From assembly GCF_018437235.1 (NCBI RefSeq), contig NZ_JAAMFJ010000001.1, positions 667,439 through 731,438 of the forward strand: a stretch of DNA of 64,000 nucleotides. The letters are read 5' to 3'. The notes under the pieces were generated by a model that saw nothing but the letters and a program-made list of their open reading frames with translations, made no database searches and was not told the origin of the DNA. Position numbers and translations under genes: made by a program. This DNA is from Fructobacillus papyrifericola. Lineage in GTDB: Bacteria > Bacillota > Bacilli > Lactobacillales > Lactobacillaceae. Shown here in pieces: positions 2,645-58,656 of this stretch (positions are counted from its first letter, which is position 1; every line of letters begins with the position of its first letter).

Positions 2645-3301
2645 TTACTTTGTAACATCCAAAAGGGTTTGAACCTTGGCTGCTGGATCCTTCTTGTCAT
2701 AGACATAAGAACCGGCAACAAAGACGTTGGCCCCGGCATCGGCCGTCAACTTGGCCGTTTCGTTGTTAATACCACCGTCAACTTCGATATCAAAGTCCAG
2801 GCCGAGTTCGTTCCGGTAGACAACCAATTCCTTAATCTTTTCCGTCATTTCTGGCAAGAAGGCCTGGCCACCAAAGCCAGGGTTAACCGTCATCACCAAA
2901 ACCTGGTCCACCATGCTCAAAGCGGGCACGATGGCCGAAACCGGCGTTCCGGGGTTAATGACAACTTCGGCCTTCACACCGGCCTTCTTAATCATCTGCA
3001 AGACGCGGTGAATGTGTGGCGTTGCTTCCACGTGAACCCCAATCAAGTCGGCCCCTGCTTCAGCCAAGGCCTCCACGTGGTTTTCCGGGTGAACAGCCAT
3101 CAAGTGAACGTCCAAGAACAGATTGGTAATTGGGCGCAATTGCTTGACCCAGGCTGGTCCATAGGCCATTGATGGGACAAAGGAGCCGTCCATCAAATCA
3201 ACGTGCAAGTACTTGGCACCGGCTTTTTCAACCAGGGCAACGTCCTCGCCCAACTTCGTTACGTCAGCGCTCAAAATCGATGGGGCAATAATTCCTGCCA
3301 T
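2645..3301 (-). CDS. rpe: Ribulose-phosphate 3-epimerase
   Basis: A 218-residue TIM-barrel enzyme that interconverts ribulose 5-phosphate and xylulose 5-phosphate, the step feeding phosphoketolase in heterolactic fermentation. Motifs in order: APSILSAD, HVDLMDGSFVPSMAYGP, DVHLMAVHPE, VNPGFGGQAFLP and DIEVDGGIN, which carry the metal-binding His/Asp residues. It follows rsgA by 34 nt, the usual Firmicute order rsgA-rpe-thiN. Confidence 0.96.
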   Translation of the reverse strand: MAGIIAPSILSADVTKLGEDVALVEKAGAKYLHVDLMDGSFVPSMAYGPAWVKQLRPITNLFLDVHLMAVHPENHVEALAEAGADLIGVHVEATPHIHRVLQMIKKAGVKAEVVINPGTPVSAIVPALSMVDQVLVMTVNPGFGGQAFLPEMTEKIKELVVYRNELGLDFDIEVDGGINNETAKLTADAGANVFVAGSYVYDKKDPAAKVQTLLDVTK

Positions 3302-3335
3302 GTTTCTTCCTCTTTCTAAAAATCCGTTTTATCAA

Positions 3336-4253
3336 CTAGTTCAAACGGTCCTGCTTCCACTTGGTCGCGTTTTTCTGATAGACCGGTCGTTTACCCTTAA
3401 TAATTTGGTAAAACAATTCATAGCTATTATACCGCTCGGTACTAATGGTGCCAAGCTCGACGGCCTCTTTGACCGCACAGCCAGGCTCGTTTAAGTGCGA
3501 GCAGGTCCGGAAGCGACAATTGACCGCCGCTTCACGAATTTCAGGGAAATAATCCCCCAATTCCTCCACGGGAAAGTCAAAGACTTCATAGGAGGAAAAG
3601 CCCGGGGTGTCGGCAATCAACGTTTGGTAGGCCGGCACTGGAATGAGTGACACTTGACGGGTCGTGTGCTTTCCACGGGAAAGAGCCTGGGAAACTTCAC
3701 CAACCGTCAGTTTCAACTCAGGTGCCAGCTGGTTTAACAGCGTGGACTTGCCCGCTCCGGTTTGGCCCATGGCAACGACAACTTGATCCTTTAACAGAGG
3801 GGTGAAGGCGGTCTTCAAATCATCACCGGCAAAGACGACCGGATAACCAATTTTCTCGTAAAGTCGCACTTTTTCCTTAAAGTCGGCTTGCTCCTTTTCA
3901 GAAAGCAAATCTAACTTTGAAAAGTAGAGGACGGGGTGGACTTTTTCAGCCTCTAAGGCAACCAACTGGCGATCAAGCAGGTTCTGTGAGAAGGCTGGCT
4001 CGACAACCGAGGTAACGACAATGGCTAAATCAACATTGGCCATCGGTGGCCGCACCAAGCTGTTCTCACGCTCATGCAGAGCCCAAATCAACCCCTCGCC
4101 GTTCTCGGACTCAAAGTCGGCCCAGTCGCCCACCAAGGGCTTCTGTCCGTTTTTACGGAACTGCCCCCGCGCCCGGGTCCGTTCAACCGTACCATCCTCG
4201 AGCATTAAATCATAATAACCGGCCAACGACCGTATAATCCGTCCTGTTTTCAT
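3336..4253 (-). CDS. rsgA: Ribosome small subunit-dependent GTPase RsgA
   Basis: A circularly permuted GTPase that acts in late 30S maturation. An N-terminal OB-fold is followed by the G4-like FSKLDL, the P-loop [14 protein letters not shown], and a C-terminal zinc site ([14 protein letters not shown]). Length is 305 residues, as expected. No Shine-Dalgarno sequence precedes the ATG; instead TATAAT ends 6 nt upstream, so the mRNA is probably leaderless and rsgA starts a new transcript after the prkC terminator. Confidence 0.95.
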
Positions 4254-39385: not shown

Positions 39386-41179
39386 TCATTCATTTAGTGA
39401 AAGCAGCGCGTTAAAAACTTCTTGTGGTAAGACAATATCAAGATGAGCTGCTGATCGCTTATTGACATTTTGACGGCGCAGTAAGGCCTGCTTTTTAGAG
39501 ACACTTCGCTGTTCCCCATTCACGGCAGCATTCTTGCGCAATGGGGGCACGTCAACACGGGCAAGGACTTTCCCTTCGACAAGTGCCTGAACTGGCATCG
39601 GGTATAAACGCCTTGGAATGGTCATCTTTAGTTCGTGCACCACCTTTTGCGTTAAAGCCGCCGCTTTTGACCGGTGCGTAACGAAAGCCAAAGCGTCGAC
39701 TTTGGCATAGTTAACCTGAACATCGACTTTCACCAAATCCGATTCTTCAAAGCCGATGGCTTTAGTCTGCAGACTAGCGTAACCATGTGTAATGGACTTC
39801 AATTGGTTGAAAAAGTCATAGGCGATCTCAGCCAGTGGTAATCGATAGGAAAGGCGAACACCGCCTGCTTGATCAACTAAGTCTGCAAAAGTCCCTCGGT
39901 ATCGTTCGGCCAATTTCATCACGGCATCCAGGTAGTCGCCCGGTGTATCAATAATACCAAGCACTATGGGCTCTTCTACTGATTCAATTTTTTCAAAACT
40001 AGGAAATTCAGCGGGATTTGTAACCGTGATTGCCTCTTTTTCCTGAACCTGACGGACTTGATAAGAAACGTTTGGTGCAGTCACAATGACTTCGATGCCA
40101 TATTCACTCGCCAGCCGTTCCTGAATAATCTGTAGATGAAAAACCCCTAAAAAGCCGACACGAAAACCGGGTCCCAGTGCTGCCGAATGCTCTTCTGCAA
40201 TGGTTAGCGCACTATCGTTCAGTTCAATCTTTAAGAGCGCCTCTTTCAAGGATAGATAATCATCCTTTGGGAAAATTCCGGCGTAGACGACCGGCTGCCG
40301 TTCTTGAAAGCCGCTTACCGCTTCCTGGCAACCCTTACTGGCACTGGTTAACGTATCACCAATTTTGACGAATTTAGGCTCCTTCAGGCCAGTGACGACA
40401 TAGCCAACCTCCCCGGCACTTAGCTGATTCGTCTTCGTTCGATCCGGCCGGTATACACCGACTTCTTTTGGTTGAAAACTCTTGTTGGTCGCCATGAACC
40501 GTAATGTTTGCCCAGCGTTCAGCTGGCCATCCACTACTCTGATTTGAGTAATCACACCCAAATAGGCATCGTATTCTGAATCGTAAACAAGGGCCTTTAA
40601 AGGACGATTTGAATCCCCCTTTGGCGAAGGTAATTCCTTGACGATTCCCTCTAGTAACTCAGGGACTCCCTGCCCCGTTTTGGCCGACACTTGATAAATT
40701 GTTTTCGACAGCAGCGTTGAATCCAATGCCATCAGTTCGTCATAAACACGGTCAACATCGGCTTGGGCTGAGTCGACTTTATTAATGACCGGAATCATCG
40801 GCAAGCCTAGGTCATGGGCCAGTCGCCAGTTGGCAACCGTTTGTGCCTGCACACCCTGCGTGGCATCCACGAGAAGCAAAACGCCATCAGTGGCGGCTAA
40901 ACTTTTACTCACCTCATAGGCAAAATCGACGTGTCCTGGTGTATCAATCAAATTTAACCGATAATTTTGACCGTCTTTTGCTCGATATTGAAGTTGTACC
41001 GTACGAGACTTAACCGTTACACCATGGGCTTGTTCAACCGATAATGAATCCAACAATTGAGGCGCCATTTCGCGTTTTGAAACGGTTCCCGTCAGTTCCA
41101 TCAGCCGGTCTGATAAAGTCGATTTCCCATGGTCAATGTGCGAAATAATCGCAAAATTTCGAATATATTTTTCTTGCAT
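39386..41179 (-). CDS. Divergent LepA/EF4-like translational GTPase
   Basis: 597 residues from ATG 41179 (MQEKYIRNFAIISHIDHGKS), chosen because GGAG lies 8 nt upstream. LepA domain order is kept: G1 HIDHGKSTLSDR, G3 DTPGHVDFAYEV, G4 NKVD. It departs from housekeeping LepA at key places. Switch I has VEQAHGVTVKSRTV where LepA has LERERGITIK, and the C-terminal domain has VPPLRKNAAVNGEQRSVSK in place of the usual YGGD-containing segment. It is probably a second, specialised LepA acting on stalled ribosomes. Regulation looks attenuated (see 41188-41277). Confidence 0.85.
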   Translation of the reverse strand: MQEKYIRNFAIISHIDHGKSTLSDRLMELTGTVSKREMAPQLLDSLSVEQAHGVTVKSRTVQLQYRAKDGQNYRLNLIDTPGHVDFAYEVSKSLAATDGVLLLVDATQGVQAQTVANWRLAHDLGLPMIPVINKVDSAQADVDRVYDELMALDSTLLSKTIYQVSAKTGQGVPELLEGIVKELPSPKGDSNRPLKALVYDSEYDAYLGVITQIRVVDGQLNAGQTLRFMATNKSFQPKEVGVYRPDRTKTNQLSAGEVGYVVTGLKEPKFVKIGDTLTSASKGCQEAVSGFQERQPVVYAGIFPKDDYLSLKEALLKIELNDSALTIAEEHSAALGPGFRVGFLGVFHLQIIQERLASEYGIEVIVTAPNVSYQVRQVQEKEAITVTNPAEFPSFEKIESVEEPIVLGIIDTPGDYLDAVMKLAERYRGTFADLVDQAGGVRLSYRLPLAEIAYDFFNQLKSITHGYASLQTKAIGFEESDLVKVDVQVNYAKVDALAFVTHRSKAAALTQKVVHELKMTIPRRLYPMPVQALVEGKVLARVDVPPLRKNAAVNGEQRSVSKKQALLRRQNVNKRSAAHLDIVLPQEVFNALLSLNE

Positions 41180-41187
41180 GTCAGTTT

Positions 41188-41277
41188 CTCCATTCATTTT
41201 AGCTTGCTTGAATGGCACTGATTAAATCAATTCCATTCGATGAGTTAGAATGGAAGTCCAATGAGTTGAATTGGCAT
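41188..41277 (-). promoter_or_regulatory. Candidate translational attenuator of the LepA-like gene
   Basis: Four alternating complementary segments on the minus strand: S1 TTCCATTC (41248-41255, inside the leader ORF), S2 GAATGGAA (41231-41238), S3 CCATTCA (41209-41215), S4 TGAATGG (41190-41196), which runs into GGAG, the ribosome-binding site. S1:S2 gives 8 perfect pairs, S3:S4 gives 7 and buries the site; S2:S3 gives 6 plus an inner TTGA/TCAG helix and frees it. This matches the erm leader scheme. Confidence 0.65.
41245..41277 (-). CDS. Leader peptide upstream of the LepA-like gene
   Basis: A ten-codon ORF, MPIQLIGLPF then TAA, with AAAGGAG five nt before its ATG, one of the best ribosome-binding sites in the region. 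Its last codons overlap segment S1 of the attenuator. A regulatory leader rather than a functional peptide is proposed; no homologue is recognised. Transcription may come from trxB read-through or from TATAAA just upstream. Confidence 0.55.
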   Translation of the reverse strand: MPIQLIGLPF

Positions 41278-41293
41278 AATCGCTCCTTTATAC

Positions 41294-41323
41294 AAAAGAA
41301 AAGCAACACGACGGCTGCTTTTC
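41294..41323 (-). terminator. Terminator of trxB
   Basis: GAAAAGCAGC and GTTGCTTTTC pair on the minus strand, followed by TTTTG; it lies just before the leader ORF. Confidence 0.78.
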
Positions 41324-41335
41324 AATAACTAAACA

Positions 41336-42280
41336 CTATTTCGCATCATCAAGGGCCGAAACATAGTTATAGGCCTCTTGACCAGCCAAACCACCATCAC
41401 CAATGGCCGTAGTGATTTGCCGCAGGTCTTTTACCAGAACATCTCCGGCAGCAAAGAGGCCAGGAACGACCGTTTCCAAGCGTTCGTTGGTCTTAATCCA
41501 GCCAGCCGGATCCGTAATGCCCATGTCCTTAAAGGCCGCCGTATTTGGCTTCAAGCCGATGTAAATAAAGACACCGGCCGTTTCAAAGGTAGAGGTCTCG
41601 CCCGTTTCATTGTTTTTCAAGTCAACGGATTGTACTTCTTCCCCATTCCCGTTAATTGCGGTAACGGAAGTGTTATAAACAAAGCGGATGTTTTCCTGCT
41701 TCTTCGCGCGGGCCTGCAGAATTGGCTGAGCCTTCAACTGGTCACCGCGAACAAAGATGGTCACGTCCTTGACGATGTTGGCCAGGTAAAGTCCCTCTTC
41801 CACAGCAGAGTCACCACCACCAACAACCGTGACAGATTCGCCCTTGAAGAAGGCGGCATCACAAACGGCACAGTAGGAAACACCTTTGCCCTGGTAATCC
41901 TCTTCGCCTGGCACACCCAAGTGCGTGTGCTCAGATCCGGTTGCAAGAATGACTGCAGGGGCCCTTAAATCGCCCATATCGGTGTGGACGACTTTGTCCT
42001 GATTGTCCAACACTTCGATGCCAGAAACGGCACCAAAGGCGTATTCAGCACCAAACTGCGTCGATGAAGCATACATTTTCTCGGCAAGGTCCGGTCCCAT
42101 GATGTTGTTATAACCCGGGTAGTTCTCAACTTCGGCCGTGTTGTTCATTTGGCCCCCGTAGATTCCCTGGTCGACCATGACCGTCTTTAATTCCGCACGG
42201 GAGGCGTAGGTTGCTGCCGTCATGCCGGCAGGTCCAGCACCAATGATGATGACGTCGTAGTTCTTCACTTCTTCAGCCAT
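41336..42280 (-). CDS. trxB: Thioredoxin-disulfide reductase
   Basis: 314 residues from ATG 42280, with GGAAAGGAG upstream. FAD site GAGPAGMTAATYASRAE, redox motif CAVCD (usual CATC), NADPH site VVGGGDSAVEEG, and the C-terminal AAGDV FAD motif. Recharges thioredoxin for MsrA/MsrB and ribonucleotide reductase. Gene order galU-trxB is the standard one here. Confidence 0.95.
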   Translation of the reverse strand: MAEEVKNYDVIIIGAGPAGMTAATYASRAELKTVMVDQGIYGGQMNNTAEVENYPGYNNIMGPDLAEKMYASSTQFGAEYAFGAVSGIEVLDNQDKVVHTDMGDLRAPAVILATGSEHTHLGVPGEEDYQGKGVSYCAVCDAAFFKGESVTVVGGGDSAVEEGLYLANIVKDVTIFVRGDQLKAQPILQARAKKQENIRFVYNTSVTAINGNGEEVQSVDLKNNETGETSTFETAGVFIYIGLKPNTAAFKDMGITDPAGWIKTNERLETVVPGLFAAGDVLVKDLRQITTAIGDGGLAGQEAYNYVSALDDAK

Positions 42281-42351
42281 AAGCACTCCTTTCCTTACTT
42301 GGATGATTCCTTGGTTCTTATTGTATATCTTAAAAATACATTTGTCTAATT

Positions 42352-58389: not shown

Positions 58390-58656
58390 GTTCAACAATA
58401 GAAAACGCCCTCCAAGCAAAGCTGCTTAGAGGGCGTTAAACGCGGTCCCACCTCATTGTTATTCGACCATCACTGGCCAAATCTCAAAACGTTTCTAAGA
58501 AACGTTCGTGCGTAACGGGCACAACCGATGTGCGCTACTATCATTTCACACACACACTCCTAGGGGTGTTTCACAGTGGTTCTCTACTTACTCGCAATCC
58601 CCGTAAGCTTCCTGAAAGAAGAAACACTGCTACTCGCCTAGTCAACGATTTATCTT
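58390..58656 (-). promoter_or_regulatory. T-box leader, features of a tRNA-His sensor
   Basis: The T-box core GGTGGGACCGCG is at about 58441-58453. The variable base of the bulge (TGGG) pairs with a C discriminator, which among bacterial tRNAs is a mark of tRNA-His (C73). Stem I is bounded by CTAGG/CCTAG with AGTAG on one side and TGAAACACC on the other, giving CAC (His) as specifier. A terminator stem AACGCCCTC../GAGGGCGTT with a T-run (58401-58437) overlaps the antiterminator. Confidence 0.88.

Follow-up and report, generated by a model that had tools for sequence, protein, structure and literature searches.

A probable stall-responsive translational attenuator preceding a second LepA (EF4) gene in Fructobacillus papyrifericola and related bacteria

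The minus strand of a 64,000-nucleotide stretch of Fructobacillus papyrifericola DNA (positions 667,439 to 731,438 of contig NZ_JAAMFJ010000001.1, assembly GCF_018437235.1; hereafter, the window) carries a very short open reading frame (the leader), four segments of alternating sense and, downstream of these, a gene for a second member of the LepA/EF4 family of ribosomal GTPases, here called lepA2. In order of transcription, and numbered along the window, the features are as follows, with the evidence for each in brackets:

41336..42286, minus strand: upstream neighbour, a trxB-like (thioredoxin reductase-like) gene (ORF list; the name is our presumption from its sequence)
41298..41323, minus strand: terminator-like hairpin ending in a T-rich stretch, downstream of trxB and upstream of the leader (consensus match only; three such matches found, 1.7 expected)
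41283..41289, minus strand: leader Shine-Dalgarno sequence AAAGGAG (sequence; a similar stretch also precedes the leader at the ten conserved loci)
41245..41277, minus strand: leader ORF MPIQLIGLPF*, core I-Q-L-I-G, ten codons and a TAA stop (sequence, relatives, pN/pS)
41248..41255, minus strand: segment 1, TTCCATTC, the final codons of the leader (sequence; helix 1:2 covaries)
41231..41238, minus strand: segment 2, GAATGGAA, partner of segment 1 or of segment 3 (sequence, covariation, folding)
41209..41215, minus strand: segment 3, CCATTCA, partner of segment 2 or of segment 4 (sequence, covariation, folding)
41190..41196, minus strand: segment 4, TGAATGG, overlapping the lepA2 Shine-Dalgarno sequence (sequence; six core pairs with segment 3 possible in all ten sequences)
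41188..41191, minus strand: lepA2 Shine-Dalgarno sequence GGAG (sequence)
39386..41179, minus strand: lepA2, 597 amino acids, the second LepA/EF4 of the genome (TIGR01393 match; paralogue of the other LepA)

A preliminary description of this DNA had proposed a ten-codon leader, MPIQLIGLPF, with AAAGGAG 5 nt before its ATG (41277) and a gap of 65 nt to the following gene, together with four alternating segments, the last running into the GGAG of a LepA paralogue. The leader proved correct to the base, all four segments lie where they had been placed, and the downstream gene encodes a LepA-family GTPase by TIGR01393, with a separate LepA elsewhere in the genome. The 65 nt run from the leader to ATG 41179, a plausible start for lepA2 with GGAG standing 8 nt before it; the start given by the mechanical ORF list, GTG 41218, lies immediately ahead of segment 3 and is probably not the true one. 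A consensus scan found no promoter-like match between the hairpin at 41298..41323 and the leader, and lepA2 may therefore be reached by read-through from trxB, past the terminator-like hairpin. Comparison of the window with Rfam 15 at the gathering score gave no family match at the leader or segments, which disposes of a T-box as an explanation of the leader, and models from PADLOC-DB for anti-phage defence gave no match. The only Rfam match in the window was a T-box leader at 58426-58654 (minus strand, 112 bits), unrelated to the lepA2 leader.

The LepA2 protein scored 690 bits against TIGR01393 (cut-off 534) and has the GTP_EFTU, domain II, EFG_C and LepA_C domains; the other LepA of the genome, the housekeeping copy, is 45% identical to it. 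We defined the LepA2 group as copies at 51% identity or above (E 7e-188 or better), the match ranked immediately below them standing at 7e-172 and 47%, and so defined it occurs in 94 of 397 genomes of the host family, counting one row per genome. Six genomes (G143, G222, G271, G273, G294 and G344) gave two LepA matches each, with no row in the LepA2 group; the extra match may be a distinct further LepA or a duplicate. Comparison of 92 LepA2 proteins (two fragments dropped) with 28 ordinary LepA proteins—13 from other groups and 15 of the host family—yielded 47 positions satisfying our criterion for separating the two sets, 22 of them inside the 110-residue C-terminal domain. The catalytic histidine, reported as His81 in E. 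coli LepA (PMC4339808), is kept in all 92 LepA2 proteins, and the arginine of the switch I motif ERGITI is replaced by histidine in the same 92, the motif (residues 48-57) mostly reading AHGVTV. At the C-terminal tip (residues 545-580), ordinary LepA has Tyr-Gly-Gly (the 13 from other groups) or His-Thr-Gly (the 15 of the host family), and LepA2 mostly has Glu, Asp, Lys, Arg or nothing at all; LepA2 thus lacks both the ERGITI switch I and the Tyr/His-x-Gly tip of housekeeping LepA. The tip is reported to reach the peptidyl transferase centre in EF4, and we infer that the changes in switch I and tip may have given LepA2 a new function.

A script scanned the DNA upstream of all 94 LepA2 loci, and for 53 of them it was also printed; three loci were poor, one having only 83 nt of upstream DNA (G088) and two a match that begins inside the gene (G228, G311). 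Leader and segments were found together at ten of ten intact lepA2 loci—six in Fructobacillus, two in genus g39 and two in Nicoliella (g32)—so that the leader ORF and segments, whose absence from relatives had been named beforehand as refuting the idea, are in fact kept. Intact lepA2 is present in six of the 13 Fructobacillus genomes, each time behind a ten-codon leader with its own Shine-Dalgarno sequence (MPIQLIGLPF, MPIQLVGISF, MTIQLVGFSF in three genomes, and MTIQLVGIAF). The leader reads MAILLVGSQF in both g39 genomes and MSQIMLVGLSF or MNVIMLVGLSF in Nicoliella, its length being 10 or 11 residues across the ten conserved loci. In one other Fructobacillus genome (G007) the leader and segments 1-3 survive in front of a C-terminal fragment of lepA2 (G007:C1:20000-26000, about 3230-3500), probably a recent loss, and another (G005) has lepA2 split between frames, with a leader that ends after MTIILVG, none of the four segments and masked bases further upstream; the five remaining Fructobacillus genomes showed no LepA2.

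The gene upstream is trxB-like in G000, G006 and G007. A GNAT gene takes this place in G003, G005, G009, G012, G050 and G082, and glyA in Nicoliella, and no open upstream gene was called in G001; the leader stays with lepA2 while these neighbours differ. A pattern of Shine-Dalgarno sequence, ATG and peptide core gave 32 matches in the 13 Fructobacillus genomes, and the reversed control pattern none. When 30 of the 32 matches were translated (one in G009 was already known from the upstream scan, and one on contig C7 of G012 was left out), seven of the pattern matches were the ten-codon leader, six before intact lepA2 and one (G007) before the remnant; the other translated matches comprised one ORF of 23 codons and ORFs of at least 59 codons, and no other short ORF of the leader type was found by this pattern in the 13 genomes.

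This survey also bears on transcription attenuation, in which a hairpin between leader and lepA2 would terminate the transcript, as happens with HflXr and msrD. A terminator-like hairpin does stand immediately before the leader in the window, as it does at trxB-linked loci and at the broken locus of G005, but none was seen by eye in G009, G012 or g39. The consensus scan of the window found no terminator-like site between leader and lepA2, where one would be needed, and segment 4 runs into GGAG rather than into a run of U's, all of which makes termination a very improbable explanation.

To describe the arrangement of segments we used a strict rule: four 6-mers in order, each able to pair with its successor and the fourth lying no more than 22 nt from the start, with one G-U pair allowed per helix. 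The window passes with or without G-U pairs. Among dinucleotide shuffles of its 100 nt, 7 of 2000 passed, and 0 of 2000 once G-U pairs were disallowed, which bears out the initial impression that the arrangement is improbable by chance. Across genomes, six of the ten leader loci passed, against none of the 79 other lepA2 loci (three of them poor, the other 76 with the start correctly located and the upstream DNA complete) and none of 15 lepA1 loci; nor did any of five divergent or decayed leader loci pass, the four divergent ones (G113, G281, G327 and G337) included.

Covariation was measured on an alignment of ten sequences, in which 92.7% of 150 cells were paired for 1:2+3:4 and 95.7% of 70 cells for 2:3, figures that fell to 24-60% when the partner was slid by one to three columns. 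Double changes touched four pairs and eight cells in 1:2+3:4 (shuffled means 1.9 and 2.6; reached in 7/500 and 0/500 shuffles) and two pairs and five cells in 2:3 (shuffled means 1.1 and 1.4; reached in 134/500 and 1/500), these shuffle statistics being inflated by the relatedness of the rows. Counts of pair types were ordinary, with shuffles reaching them 231 times in 500 for 1:2+3:4 and 353 times in 500 for 2:3. Compensatory changes among relatives, which the preliminary description had suggested looking for, were accordingly seen in 1:2 and 2:3, the helices from which the covariation comes; helix 3:4 is nearly invariant. RNAalifold picked 1:2+3:4 unprompted.

The leader is constrained as a peptide as well as an RNA. 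For the core I-x-L-[VI]-G, pN/pS was 0.22 over ten sequences and 0.25 over 14, and the same bases read in the shifted frames (ten sequences) gave 0.64 and 1.46; judged by these ratios, the core is selected at the peptide level. Within it, all four glycine codons are used, leucine is encoded by five codons (CTT, TTA, CTA, CTC and TTG), the second position holds Q, L or M, and glycine is invariant in all 14. The divergent leaders—MDHIILLIGR (G113), MSTEILFIGTPAL (G281), MNRILLVGLIVV (G327) and MIMLVGYVL (G337)—keep the peptide core; at these loci (L049, L041, L090, L103) the pattern I-x-[LF]-[VI]-G stands before other hairpins. The +X+ motif of macrolide arrest (Arg/Lys-X-Arg/Lys) occurs in none of the 14 leaders, which speaks against a canonical macrolide-arrest leader. 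The four divergent loci suggest that the RNA elements change more quickly in evolution than the leader peptide.

Such constraint sits badly with the idea that the leader merely couples translation to lepA2, or allows re-initiation there, the hairpins being mRNA-stability elements. Leader and gene do lie close together and in the same direction at the loci read, and effects on mRNA stability have reportedly been published for erm; coupling, however, needs neither conserved peptide residues nor two mutually exclusive conserved pairings, and 65 nt is a long gap for re-initiation. We consider this explanation decidedly unlikely.

Predicted folding energy is ordinary (z -0.90 for the window; 36 of 200 shuffles did as well), and it is arrangement and conservation, not stability, that carry the case. 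In the idle minimum-free-energy (MFE) structure, with no ribosome present, all six 3:4 core pairs are predicted in nine of ten sequences (the exception is L013), and at least seven of the eight pairs of helix 1:2 in eight of ten, the two g39 sequences having half of them; in the window, pairing within GGAG is confined to its first two bases. A ribosome was mimicked by a script that removes the bases covered with codon 7 in the P site, which masks segment 1. Helix 2:3 then forms in six of ten sequences, and 3:4 persists as the MFE structure in the other four (L009, L011, L038, L039). The gain in predicted access to GGAG is large in the window (L001), from 0.26 to 0.70, and in L040, from 0.01 to 0.46, with 7/200 and 4/200 shuffles, respectively, reaching as high; it is 0.04-0.27 in seven sequences and -0.01 in L039. 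On predicted access, the original claim that 1:2+3:4 hides the ribosome-binding site and 2:3 exposes it has clear support in two of ten sequences, weak support in seven and none in one. With codon 9 in the P site, predicted access is lower than with codon 8 in nine of ten sequences (L009 and L013 were scored at AGGA inside segment 4), and in the divergent G113 and G327 the idle site is predicted to be open (0.79 and 0.85). The modelled energies, then, back an attenuator weakly. Their ordinariness is what might be expected of a chance similarity without function, a notion that we find scarcely credible given that conservation, covariation, peptide-level selection and the strict-rule counts all speak against it.

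We placed the leader-bearing genes on a quick maximum-likelihood tree, built without bootstrap. The 14 leader-bearing LepA2 proteins required two label changes (shuffled mean 13.2; 0/500 as low), and 13 of them form one group (SH-aLRT 99), with G337 outside. Among the 79 leaderless lepA2 loci, 44 have a TetR-type regulator gene (Pfam TetR_N and TetR_C_34) upstream, within 400 nt or overlapping, and our scans found neither leader nor TetR-type gene at the remaining 35. A similar upstream gene, judged by eye, is present in G695, probably Enterococcus silesiacus. The TetR-preceded lepA2 genes of other lactobacilli, and probably that of E. silesiacus, thus belong to the same LepA2 subfamily and differ in having a regulator gene in the leader's place.

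We think it likely that leader and segments together act as a translational attenuator that switches on LepA2 when a ribosome stalls on the leader; ribosome geometry, two exclusive pairings and a conserved peptide make stall-induced translational attenuation the best reading of the locus. Without stalling, ribosomes would clear the leader, 1:2 and 3:4 would pair and the lepA2 ribosome-binding site would be partly closed. The leading edge of a ribosome lies about 15 nt ahead of the P-site codon, and in the window segment 2 begins 39 nt past the first base of the leader, at which distance the edge touches segment 2 with codon 9 in the P site. A ribosome halted around codons 6-8 would cover segment 1 and leave segment 2 free, and 2:3 could therefore form, opening the lepA2 site.

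Attenuators of the erm (ErmCL, ErmBL) and cat genes share with this locus a short leader led by its own Shine-Dalgarno sequence and four alternating segments, the last at the ribosome-binding site of the gene, as well as opening by a stalled ribosome, which is predicted here. Their targets are a methyltransferase and an acetyltransferase, whereas the target here is an EF4 paralogue, and the I-x-L-[VI]-G core is unlike the reported arrest motifs RLR or +X+, or MGIFSIFVIS of ErmCL. In Listeria, hflXr (lmo0762) likewise places the duplicate of a housekeeping ribosome GTPase under a leader-peptide attenuator: HflXr is described as a paralogue of the ribosome GTPase HflX controlled by a small-ORF attenuator, there with transcription attenuation and an RLR leader, in contrast to the predicted translational control, different GTPase and different leader of lepA2 (PMC6310831). 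MsrDL (MYLIFM), before msrD, is also a very short hydrophobic leader in front of a ribosome-acting factor; it is reported to stall at the stop codon and act on a terminator (PMC10314930), whereas the geometry of the lepA2 leader favours a halt before the stop. The label lepA2 is already in use for a gene of Weissella confusa, as is lepA_2 (lp_3120) for one of L. plantarum. In the open-licence literature we found neither a described attenuator for a LepA/EF4 gene nor a study of the regulation of lepA2 or lepA_2.

As to the trigger, we lean slightly towards a small molecule, acting on the peptidyl transferase centre or on the exit tunnel, as the cause of the halt. A drug is suggested by the erm-like logic, a ribosome GTPase as target, the hflXr precedent and the TetR-type regulators of relatives, which belong to a family that often senses small molecules. 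According to a review (PMC13410324), chloramphenicol stalls ribosomes when Ala, or to a lesser degree Ser, Gly or Thr, occupies the E site; as a guess, the invariant glycine would suit stalling of this type with codon 8 in the P site.

The same attenuator might instead answer to something other than a drug—Leu or Ile shortage, cold, or general translation or redox stress—with LepA2 serving as a stress EF4. The leader core does contain Ile, Leu and Val, and LepA has been linked to ionic and temperature stress (PMC4342817); trxB is the neighbour in the window, and on Leuconostoc plasmids lepA2 has genes for a thioredoxin, an FAD-oxidoreductase and a metal sensor beside it. Against a stress trigger, the core leucine is read by five codons and position 2 by three different residues while the glycine never varies in 14 leaders, and the leader stays constant as neighbours change from locus to locus. 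Attenuators that sense amino-acid shortage, moreover, usually carry runs of one residue. We therefore hold a stress trigger to be possible but not probable.

Under a small-molecule trigger, LepA2 with its rebuilt, centre-facing tip would help halted ribosomes. Taken further, and still a tentative proposal, LepA2 would be a ribosome-protection factor built from EF4, with an intact GTPase, an altered switch I and a tip rebuilt toward the peptidyl transferase centre, made only when the I-x-L-V-G leader, of a new class, reports a ribosome halted by a drug or toxin and switched elsewhere by a TetR-type regulator responding to the same signal. Such a LepA2, a duplicated elongation factor, would stand to EF4 as Tet(M) stands to EF-G. 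LepA/EF4 is near-universal in bacteria and its loss is reported to give no distinct phenotype (PMC4342817). Its role is disputed, and a paralogue controlled by a stall sensor would tell when cells want an EF4-like activity, the leader-lepA2 element offering a cheap reporter with which to find its signal. If the trigger is an antibiotic, LepA2 would join HflXr as a further family of duplicated ribosome GTPases that have become inducible protection factors, carried by food- and bee-associated bacteria and by Leuconostoc plasmids.

The lepA2 gene of G327 lies on a plasmid of Leuconostoc lactis, and a 241-base stretch across its leader region has matches of 99.6-100% identity in 14 plasmid records out of 72,556. 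All 14 are from Leuconostoc, and 12 of them are typed as mobilizable. Leuconostoc plasmids, mostly from kimchi, carry the MNRILLVGLIVV leader with lepA2 (L250-L252), and genes for an HxlR-type regulator, a thioredoxin, an FAD-oxidoreductase and a metal-sensitive regulator lie near lepA2 on such plasmids. Among the matches listed, lepA2 falls in two pieces in 8 of 13 Leuconostoc rows and is therefore probably broken there. LepA2-like proteins at 55-58% identity were seen in Bifidobacterium, Bombiscardovia, Bacillus tropicus, Oenococcus oeni, Pediococcus and Enterococcus, and the naming of close relatives from such scattered genera suggests that lepA2 has spread horizontally; among them, upstream DNA was read for the Enterococcus member, G695. 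A broader contig search gave, among the matches listed (80 loci), one LepA2-like protein (58% identical), the rest being 42-47% identical; 13 of these 80 loci served as the outgroup LepA in the residue comparison. In phages, 119 records had matches, the best ten of the 119 being 42-47% identical.
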